From positions 1-64,000 of the forward strand of contig JAGAJR010000010.1 of the NCBI GenBank assembly GCA_017626035.1: a stretch of 64,000 nt of DNA. Reading direction: 5' to 3'. This document shows, piece by piece, positions 7,945-64,000 of the stretch (the stretch's first letter is position 1; every line of letters starts with the position of its first letter). This DNA comes from Alphaproteobacteria bacterium (lineage in GTDB: Bacteria > Pseudomonadota > Alphaproteobacteria > RF32 > CAG-239). The notes under the pieces are model-generated. The model worked only from the letters and a program-made list of their open reading frames with translations. It was not told the DNA's origin and searched no databases. A program made the position numbers and the translations under genes.

Positions 7945-7968
7945 GTATAATGTTTTTTGTCTAAATGA

Positions 7969-7997
7969 TTGACAGGGGCGGGGAAGTGTAATACTTT
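7969..7997 (+). promoter_or_regulatory. Possible promoter of the lectin-like gene
   Basis: A perfect TTGACA at 7969-7974 is followed 17 bases later by the poor -10 TACTTT; TAATAC lies closer, at 7989-7994. It is the only -35-like match between the kinase terminator and the gene at 8075. The weak -10 may mean an activator is needed, or that this is chance. Confidence 0.3.
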
Positions 7998-8074
7998 AAG
8001 GAATGTTTTGAGATTATTGTAGGGATGTATTTTTAGTTACCATATTTATTTATCTTAATCCAAACTTTGAAATT

Positions 8075-8653
8075 ATGAGAAAAAGTGAAAATCTTGAACA
8101 GGTTCTTCCTGGAATGTATGTTTATGCGGACGGGCTGGTTTCTTCCGAAATTATTCCTAATCGCCAGATTAAAGCTGTTGTCGGATATGTTGCTGAAGGA
8201 AAGGTTTATGCCGTTTGTTTGAAAGAGACTGAACTTCCATGGTCAAGTGATCGTTTGTTGGTTCCGGAAACAAAAACAATGATAAGCGGCAAGGAAGCAA
8301 CAAAAAAAATATTGGAAACGGCTTGGGCTCAAGGAAAAAAAGCAGAAGCGGCTCAATGGTGTCATGATTACGCACAAGACGGTGTTAAATCAGGGGAAGC
8401 CTTTTTAGCATCTTTGTATGAGTGGGAAATTTTATTAGCCAATAAAGATGCGATTAATGCCTCATTGAAACGTTTGGGGGGGGCGACTTTATTTCAATCA
8501 TATTGGTTGTCTAACGAGTACAATAGTCATAATTCTCGGAGGTTGACCTTGATTCATGATTGTTACTATATCTACGGTAAGAGTTCTTGTTACTACATCT
8601 ATGGTAAGAGTTATGATAACTATGTCCGTCCGGTTATTTCTTTTGAGCTTTGA
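8075..8653 (+). CDS. Lcl/DUF1566-like lectin-fold protein with a hypervariable-looking C-terminus
   Basis: This 192-residue protein has no signal peptide. The first 150 residues match the pattern of DUF1566/Lcl-type (C-type-lectin-fold) proteins: LPGMYVYADG, then AVCLKETELPWSSD, then GEAFLASLYEWE. The last 45 residues run from YWLSNEYNS through a Tyr/Ser/Gly-rich stretch to NYVRPVISF. In related proteins this part is Asn-rich (NNNNK before YVRPV) and in some it is the variable region of a diversity-generating retroelement. Here most of those codons are NNC or NNT, as expected if AAC/AAT codons had been changed at their adenines. No good ribosome site precedes the ATG. No reverse transcriptase or template repeat is in the window. 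Confidence 0.7.
   Translation: MRKSENLEQVLPGMYVYADGLVSSEIIPNRQIKAVVGYVAEGKVYAVCLKETELPWSSDRLLVPETKTMISGKEATKKILETAWAQGKKAEAAQWCHDYAQDGVKSGEAFLASLYEWEILLANKDAINASLKRLGGATLFQSYWLSNEYNSHNSRRLTLIHDCYYIYGKSSCYYIYGKSYDNYVRPVISFEL
8561..8614 (+). repeat. In-frame 27-bp tandem duplication in the variable C-terminus
   Basis: Bases 8561-8587 and 8588-8614 encode CYYIYGKSS and CYYIYGKSY. The two copies differ at three bases: two silent third-position C/T changes and one that changes the last residue. It lies inside the region that should be hypervariable if the protein is a retroelement target. Confidence 0.85.
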
Positions 8654-8663
8654 AATTGGTATT

Positions 8664-8699
8664 AAGCCTTCGTGATGTTTAATCACGGAGGCTTTTTTT
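8664..8699 (+). terminator. Intrinsic terminator after the lectin-like gene
   Basis: A 13-bp stem (8664-8676 with 8682-8694, one G-T pair) with a 5-base loop and seven Ts lies 10 bases after the stop codon. Hairpins just downstream of variable regions also occur in diversity-generating retroelements, so this one could have a second role. Confidence 0.8.
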
Positions 8700-8767: not shown

Positions 8768-11227
8768 ATGGTTGATGAAACAGTAAACACCCAATCTTCC
8801 GATGAAGAATATGAGTATGAATATATTGAGTTGGCCGAAGGCGAAGAGCTCCCGGCTGATGCGGAATATGAGTATGAATATATTGAAGTTCCGGCGGAAA
8901 GCGTCCCTCATGAAGAGATAACAGATGTTTCTCAGCCAGCGGCAGAGGATGCTGCTTCCGTTGAAATGACAATGGTTGCGGAACCTGCGGTTAATCCTGT
9001 TTCCGAGATTGTTCCGGAGGTACCGGCAGATCCGGTATTCGTTTCTCAGGAAGATACTTCCGGACAAGTTTCCTCCGTGGTTGAAGAAACGGTGGTTTTG
9101 CCTGAAGAAAATATAGCTGTCGCGGCAGTTGAAGAAACCGTTGCAACAGAAGTCTCCGTGCCGCAAGGAGAGGAAATTTCATCTGTCGGTTCTGATGTTC
9201 CTTTTGTTCCTGAACCGATTGTAACGGAGGAGAAAGCTCAATTAGCCGAAACATTGCCGGAAGATGATAATTCTATGCTGGAATTATCTCAAAATGAGGA
9301 AAGCTTGAGTGAAATGCTGGTGGATGTTTCGGAAAGCGGAAATGTTGTTCAGCCAACTGTGGAAACAGATGTGGATCTTGAAAGTGAGTTGTTTGGAGCT
9401 TCTGCACCGGTTAATATTGATGAAATTCCATTTAATGAGGTTAAGGCACCGGTTTTGGAAGCACAAACATTTTCTGAACCGGTAACGTCTGTTGAACCGG
9501 AGGCAGAAGTTGTTCCCGAGCCGGTTGCCGTTGCCGTACCGGAACCAACACCGGTAGAACCGGCACCGACTGTTGAATCGGAGGTGGAAGTTGTTCCCGA
9601 GCCGGTTGTCGCTGCTGCACCGGAACCAGCAGCGGTAGAACCGGCACCGATTGTTGAATCGGAGGCAGAAGTTGTCCCTGAACCGGTTGCCGTTGCCGCA
9701 CTGGAACCAACACCGGTAGAACCGGCACCGACTGTTGAGCCGGGGGCAGAAGTTGTCCCTGAACCGGTTGCCGTTGCCGTACCGGAACCAACACCGGTAG
9801 AACCGGCACCGGCTGTTGAGCCGGGGGCAGAAGTTGTCCCTGAACTGGTTGTCGTTGCCGTACCGGAACCAACACCGGTAGAACCGGCACCGGCTGTTGA
9901 ACCGGAGGCAGAAGTTGTCCCTGAACCGGTTGCCGTTGCCGCACCGGAACCAACACCGGTAGAACCGGCACCGACTGTTGAACTGGAGGCGGAAGTTGCT
10001 CCAGAACCGGTCGATTTGCAGATCGATGAAACGGAAGTTGATGTTATTCAAAATATTTTATCGGGAGAAAATGCGGAGCCTGTGGAAGTTGAAACGGATA
10101 TTTCTGCCGTTGAAAATTCAGTTTCCTCACCGATAACAGATTCTGTTCAGGAAACGGCTGTTATTGAAACGATTAATCCGGAGGAAAATAAAAGTGAAAT
10201 CTCAGAAGATAAGCAGGAAGCTTTGATTTTAGAGACTATTTCCACGCCGATTGTTCCGCTTGAGGAAATTTCTTCCGAGGAAGAAATCGTTCGGTTGTCG
10301 GAGCCGGAAATTGTCAGTGATGAGGTTTCTTTTCAGGTTTTACCGATAAATGAAGAAAATTATATTTCATATCGGGATGTTTCTAAAAGTTTCGGCAGGA
10401 TGTCCGGTGTTCAAACTTTCCAAGGAGATGAAACTCGCAATGTTATTCTTTTGAATGAAATTGATTATAAAGAGAAAGAACTGGAATCGTGGAGTATTAT
10501 TGTTTTCAAAAGTTCTTTGATTTCTCTTCCGGAAGGAAACAGTTCCGTCCGACTTGAAAAGAATACCGAAACAGTAAGGTATGCTCGTGTTGTGAAAAAC
10601 GGTACTCCGGAATTGTCCGTATTTAATGAAGAAGAATTTCATTTGGAACGGAATAACGATGAATTTGTGCAGGGAAAAAATCATTTTATTTATGCAAAAC
10701 CGGGATTCAATACCGGGATTATTGTTAATGATTTTGAGAATATTTCTTTGGCGGACAAGGAAGGGAAGGCGGTTGTCTTCAATGTTCCGGTTTCAGGAAT
10801 ATTAGCCGGTCCGGGCAATGCAAAGTTGTATTTTGCAAATATTCGGGAAGTTGTTGTGGCAACAGCGGCTTTGGTGCGAGTGGATGAAGATAAGTTACAG
10901 GCTAAAAACGCTAAATGGTACAGCGGTTCCTTAAGCGATAAATATTTTGAATTATCGGCGGGAAGTTCTTCTTGTGAGTTTATCGGCAATGAAGAGGTAC
11001 GGAGTATTCATGTTAATGTCGGAACATCTACATACGGTTGGAATGTTACGTTTGACAACGGTATTGTTATGAGTTTTCGCGATTTACAGGAATTTCAGAA
11101 TAAACACGGTGCGTTGCCGTCGGCAAACGGGACGATTTCTCACGGTCAGCTGAATTGTAAGTTTAGCAATATTGAGCGGATTGTTGTTTATGAGATTCCG
11201 CAATATTTTGCTTACGGAAGAATGTAG
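8768..11227 (+). CDS. Large acidic Pro/Val/Glu repeat protein, function unknown
   Basis: This 819-residue protein has no signal peptide or membrane helix. The N-terminus carries two copies of EYEYEYIE about 20 residues apart. A very acidic, probably disordered stretch follows to about residue 247. Six tandem 27-residue repeats of the type VVPEPVAVAVPEPTPVEPAP then run from residue 248 to 409, with partial copies on both sides. After another acidic linker, the last 280 residues (about 540-819) look folded, with alternating beta-type hydrophobics, and match no family I know. AGGCAGG precedes the ATG, and terminators lie on both sides. A spacer or scaffold with a C-terminal functional domain is a guess. 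Confidence 0.75.
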   Translation: MVDETVNTQSSDEEYEYEYIELAEGEELPADAEYEYEYIEVPAESVPHEEITDVSQPAAEDAASVEMTMVAEPAVNPVSEIVPEVPADPVFVSQEDTSGQVSSVVEETVVLPEENIAVAAVEETVATEVSVPQGEEISSVGSDVPFVPEPIVTEEKAQLAETLPEDDNSMLELSQNEESLSEMLVDVSESGNVVQPTVETDVDLESELFGASAPVNIDEIPFNEVKAPVLEAQTFSEPVTSVEPEAEVVPEPVAVAVPEPTPVEPAPTVESEVEVVPEPVVAAAPEPAAVEPAPIVESEAEVVPEPVAVAALEPTPVEPAPTVEPGAEVVPEPVAVAVPEPTPVEPAPAVEPGAEVVPELVVVAVPEPTPVEPAPAVEPEAEVVPEPVAVAAPEPTPVEPAPTVELEAEVAPEPVDLQIDETEVDVIQNILSGENAEPVEVETDISAVENSVSSPITDSVQETAVIETINPEENKSEISEDKQEALILETISTPIVPLEEISSEEEIVRLSEPEIVSDEVSFQVLPINEENYISYRDVSKSFGRMSGVQTFQGDETRNVILLNEIDYKEKELESWSIIVFKSSLISLPEGNSSVRLEKNTETVRYARVVKNGTPELSVFNEEEFHLERNNDEFVQGKNHFIYAKPGFNTGIIVNDFENISLADKEGKAVVFNVPVSGILAGPGNAKLYFANIREVVVATAALVRVDEDKLQAKNAKWYSGSLSDKYFELSAGSSSCEFIGNEEVRSIHVNVGTSTYGWNVTFDNGIVMSFRDLQEFQNKHGALPSANGTISHGQLNCKFSNIERIVVYEIPQYFAYGRM
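9509..9994 (+). repeat. Six tandem 81-bp coding repeats
   Basis: Six in-frame units of 81 bases start at 9509. A degenerate half unit precedes them and a short partial unit (VAPEPV) follows at 9995. Units differ by scattered substitutions, so the array is old enough to have diverged but is still in exact register. It is a minisatellite that could change length by slippage or recombination without breaking the frame. Confidence 0.9.
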
Positions 11228-63957: not shown

Positions 63958-64000
63958 ATGACTGATATAATTAGAAAAATTATGGGAGCAGGCTTGTTTT
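63958..64000 (+). CDS. Start of a further protein (cut by window edge)
   Basis: ATG 63958 lies seven bases after AAGGAG and 25 bases after the previous stop, and the frame is open to the window end. The first 14 residues are MTDIIRKIMGAGLF, a basic then hydrophobic start that would suit a signal peptide. It is probably co-transcribed with the Cys-rich gene. Confidence 0.6.
   Translation, partial: MTDIIRKIMGAGLF

Follow-up and report, generated by a model that had tools for sequence, protein, structure and literature searches.

The gene at 8075-8653 of the window (the whole 64,000-nt stretch analysed, C9:1-64000; the genome comprises 1.64 Mb in 27 contigs) encodes a C-type-lectin-like protein that, as judged from its homologues, is a member of a family of targets of diversity-generating retroelements (DGRs). 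Its C-terminal variable region (VR) was, we think probable though by no means certain, written in the past by the DGR lineage of this genome and has since lapsed. The earlier note on this DNA had proposed a retroelement-diversified C-terminus; the target family, the kinship of the VR to a template repeat (TR) and the presence of a DGR in the genome bear this out, whereas current rewriting by that DGR finds no such support. The family would consist of dispersed, leaderless Lcl_C/DUF1566 genes diversified in trans by DGRs of this alphaproteobacterial family. If the standard DGR mechanism applies to it, by analogy with the BPP-1 literature, then in a live copy the reverse transcriptase (RT) with Avd would copy the TR RNA and misread template adenines, and the cDNA would replace the C-terminal VR, anchored by an IMH-like sequence at its 3' end and by the hairpin past the stop codon. 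The window copy would have arisen when a module, comprising upstream region, gene and terminator, was duplicated into the stretch that separates a conserved sensor kinase from an acidic-protein gene, and the VR of this copy, earlier written by this DGR lineage, would then have drifted into a lapsed or fossil state.

The window's 64,000 nt contain no RT and no TR, in keeping with the earlier note, which had allowed that both might act in trans, lie far away or be lost. The search of the whole genome that it had suggested recovered both, the TR split between the end of C9 and the start of C4, and the RT on C4. A DNA search with the window VR as query matched no template; the TR was located via the sequence upstream of the RT and its conserved 3' end. 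The RT is the single RVT_1 match in the genome (E=1.4e-19; PHROG RT, E=1.2e-95) and carries the PIGNLTSQ and YVDD motifs, and it is of DGR type; likewise, one bAvd and one TR leader are present. C9 breaks within the TR, 1.5 kb beyond the window edge, and the RT opens C4. Positions 1-61 of the intact TR of a sister genome (G034) map to the end of C9 and positions 82-121 to the start of C4, which leaves some 20 nt missing from the assembly, if there is a single TR. The splitting of the TR between C9 and C4, and the order Avd-TR-RT seen in relatives, lead us to infer that C4 follows C9. The DGR lies 56.8 kb downstream of the window gene on the same contig, with Avd and TR 1-1.5 kb past the window edge; distant location is borne out, live action in trans on the window copy is not. 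Between cognate VR and TR, 12/24 A and 1/37 non-A positions are mismatched, and the 3' anchor is identical.

A conserved stem-loop leader precedes each TR (C9:65364-65410; L063, L064, L065, L067, L069, L070). In 12 of the 13 sequences its outer 6-bp stem is fully paired, and changes in it are compensatory (ACTGCC/GGCAGT, GTCGTC/GGCGAC, GTTATC/GATAAC). An Rfam search with this leader gave no match; the leader may be part of the DGR RNA.

Features of the window gene and of the DGR (plain positions are those of the window; C9, C4 and C13 are contigs)
Feature	Position	Strand	Remarks
Duplicated module (upstream region, gene, terminator)	~7950..8697	+	common to paralogue C13:265-936; between sensor kinase and acidic-protein gene
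ORF, leaderless Lcl/DUF1566-family gene	8075..8653	+	192 aa; assigned by homology to dispersed DGR target family
VR	8504..8646	+	first 61 nt (8504-8564) align gap-free to TR 5' half
27-bp tandem duplication inside VR	8560..8613	+	YYIYGKS twice; two synonymous third-base differences
IMH-like 3' anchor	8624..8644	+	window GTCCGTCCGGTTATTTCTTTT; TR GTCCGGCCGGTCCTAGCTTTT
Terminator-like hairpin	8664..8694	+	starts 10 bases after stop
Cognate secreted DGR target gene	start 63958..64000, ends C9:64722	+	VR C9:64609-64720
Avd gene	C9:64956-65324		follows cognate target; bAvd E=2.4e-17, PHROG Avd E=2.1e-24
TR leader	C9:65364 onward		sole TR leader assembled
TR 5' half	C9:65418-65478		last 61 bases of C9
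TR 3' end	first 40 bases of C4		TR 3' end and RT span C4:1-1417
RT	C4:53-1417

The 192-aa product ends in ...SYDNYVRPVISFEL, i.e. NYVRPVISFEL, and so contains the NYVRPVISF that the earlier note had given as the end of its pattern. Its attribution to the Lcl/DUF1566 type is probable and comes by way of its relatives: Pfam and NCBIfam searches with the window protein alone gave no match, and it was provisionally assigned to Lcl_C/DUF1566 because matches were obtained with a homologue 57% identical to it (L027; Lcl_C, E=6.5e-7, under the Pfam gathering cut-off), with the cognate target protein (Lcl_C, E=6.3e-9) and with the family profile (PDB 8q4e, E=1.3e-5). AlphaFold models of seven sequences were too poor for a fold search (pLDDT 42.8). 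The viral contigs searched held no match, and a phage search returned a single weak match of 32% identity. Some 30 N-terminal residues, a KLEQIYCLAQKLGLSLGEVVDCFSKK-type segment, are absent from the window copy (8075-8110); the segment is present in the C13 paralogue and in G034 and G025 homologues, and missing in some G025 copies.

Homologues at E<=1e-20 occur in 11 of the 89 genomes searched, the gene's own genome included. In those sister genomes that have a known TR, VRs were compared with it. The nearest homologue (L027, in G034) differs from its own genome's TR at 19/48 A and 0/67 non-A positions (p=5e-9), another (L032, in G039) at 18/41 A and 0/71 non-A, and G025 copies differ from the matching TR at 15/39 A and 1/78 non-A, and at 12/37 A and 1/80 non-A, respectively. 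Because its closest homologues in sister genomes are clean targets of this kind, the window gene is placed by sequence within a DGR target family. The clean targets sit on contigs other than that of the RT and are therefore probably targeted in trans. Four further homologues (L037, L046, L048, L052) have lost resemblance to any TR.

By such a comparison, the window VR falls short of a clean product of the visible TR. The expectation of a template differing only at adenines fails here: within the 61 nt comparable to the TR 5' half, mismatches fall at 11/24 A and also at 5/37 non-A positions, and the 3' anchor, an internal duplication and a lost Trp add to the discrepancy. Over this comparable 5' half and against the visible TR, the A share of mismatches is 69%, under the criterion of Roux et al. 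2021 that at least 75% of TR-VR mismatches lie on template A (PMC8144416). The 3' anchor departs from the TR by four non-A and one A mismatch in 21 nt, as against 0-3 non-A mismatches in probably live VRs here; the weight of this difference is lowered because as many as three non-A changes occur in likely live VRs in G025 and in one of this genome. In the SSW motif, a TGG-to-CGG change has put Arg in place of the conserved Trp. Since the two copies of the duplication encode the same residues and differ by synonymous changes, the duplication would have arisen after the residues were set and has since aged, a history that fits poorly with any recent rewriting from the 3' side. The A share, the four non-A anchor changes, the loss of Trp and the duplication together suggest that the window copy is no longer rewritten. 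A point against the overall reading is that, at sites where the TR has no A, the window VR and its paralogue have diverged about as much as have the gene bodies.

An unseen TR, and not decay, could be behind mismatches of this sort, since the A share of live VRs falls to the same range, 50-70%, when they are set against a TR of an array that is not their own. Sister cassettes hold tandem TRs (two in G039, three each in G025 and G006, four in G009), which have their 3' anchor and leader in common and differ in their 5' halves. Individual targets match individual TRs of an array, and neighbouring target genes in G025 match different ones. (Upstream of the RT, arrays L064, L067, L069 and L070 comprise four, two, three and three units.) The window gene might thus still be targeted in trans, by a second TR that a contig break inside such an array has removed from the assembly; the assembly breaks exactly within the TR, and the 13% non-A mismatch of the window VR looks like that of a VR set against the wrong TR. 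Even so, this reading is unlikely: TRs of an array have a common 3' anchor, from which that of the window is four non-A changes away, just one TR leader was assembled, and the duplication and the Trp loss would be left unexplained.

That the VR was nevertheless once written by a DGR is suggested by its third codon positions, 18/19 of which equal the TR, as compared with 6-10/19 in six Lcl_C paralogues without relation to the TR (pooled, 44/114; p=5e-6). The relationship between VR and TR therefore extends to the nucleotide level and exceeds what protein homology would give. NNC and NNT codons, said by the earlier note to prevail in 8520-8625, account for 30 of the 36 codons there, versus 65/148 in the part of the gene upstream (p=1.4e-5); of 17,322 36-codon stretches across ORFs of the window, no more than 53 are as rich in them. 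The bias of mismatches towards A is less telling, with p=0.006 over all sites and p=0.14 when the first two codon positions alone are counted. As this enrichment is weak, and one non-DGR paralogue used as control reaches p=0.002 at codon positions 1 and 2, the A-bias is insufficient alone to support the case. It could accordingly be argued that no DGR ever wrote the C-terminus, which would be an ordinary diverged lectin-like end sharing ancestry with the target family, in line with the weak A-bias of the single comparison, the differing 3' anchor and the existence in this genome of other Lcl_C paralogues without relation to the TR. The third positions, the NNY enrichment and the clean DGR targets among the closest homologues outside the genome make this quite improbable. 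Least probable is that the visible TR currently diversifies the window gene in trans, as the earlier note had allowed: the DGR is present and apparently intact, its Avd-TR-RT order is conserved with relatives and a hairpin lies behind the VR, but the 5/37 non-A mismatches of the comparable 5' half, those of the 3' anchor and an A share below that of Roux et al. (PMC8144416) all speak against it.

The sensor kinase upstream of the window gene is conserved in 39 of 40 genomes, and no homologue of the window gene was found within 1.5 kb behind the kinase at any of the 29 sister loci read. In the closest of these the kinase is followed directly by the acidic EYEYIELAEGEELP protein, and the conserved sequence that precedes this protein resumes at about window position 8690. 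The empty site in relatives, together with the module common to the C13 paralogue, suggests that the window copy was probably gained by duplication or insertion. The acidic protein itself (8768-11227), 819 aa long, contains PEPTPVEPAPTVE-type repeats in tandem. Many relatives keep portions of it beside the kinase, often the ~100 residues at its end.

Lcl_C/DUF1566 has been reported as the most common DGR target domain, and DGRs with multiple TRs and multiple VRs are already described (PMC6642488); the window system is a further case. Like other DGR Lcl_C/DUF1566 proteins, the window gene has a C-terminal NNY-rich VR, an xVRPVLAF-type ending and a hairpin behind the stop, and its homologues show A-only variation; unlike them, its protein is without signal peptide or adhesin modules, and the window copy has fewer than 75% A mismatches against the visible TR. 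RT, Avd, TR, C-terminal VR, IMH-like anchor and hairpin are shared with the DGR of Bordetella phage BPP-1 (Mtd, Avd, TR, Brt; PMC3240598), whereas the DGR here is chromosomal with several dispersed targets, and its relatives have tandem TR arrays. The phage DGR hairpin has a 7-10 bp stem and a GRNA tetraloop (PMC3240598); that of the window, found where the earlier note had placed it, has a 13-bp stem, a 5-nt loop and a T-run. Hairpins of the same kind follow live targets in sister genomes, and that of the window is not distinguishable from a terminator. Because such terminator-like hairpins are found behind live targets and ordinary genes alike, it was dropped as DGR-specific evidence. The structure matched by the family profile across the lectin-like end, 8q4e, we take (with 8qk8) to be the C-terminal domain of the Lcl adhesin of Legionella pneumophila; unlike Lcl, the window protein has no collagen-like repeats and no secretion signal. 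Lcl of L. pneumophila is not, to our knowledge, known as a DGR target.

We tentatively propose, as a possibility, that one DGR, whose distinct TRs, each with a leader, stand in a tandem array, acts as a template library for dispersed leaderless, probably intracellular lectin-like proteins. Each TR would be dedicated to different copies, copies would be added at new sites and old ones would be retired as fossil VRs, the window gene among them. A target gene of a DGR lying beyond the window edge was confirmed here from sequence alone, and the case illustrates a possible way for target copies to spread and lapse. Most cellular DGR targets so far described are surface proteins; with a leaderless family that is diversified in trans, one may ask what ligand a variable lectin-like protein inside the cell would bind. 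In the sister genomes TR arrays are paired with targets, which makes template choice testable.

In many contigs of this assembly, an Lcl_C or Cys-rich repeat gene lies at or close to an end (the ends of C9, C11, C26, C20, C18, C13 and C5, and the start of C4), as if the breaks were caused by these repeats and by TR/VR copies.
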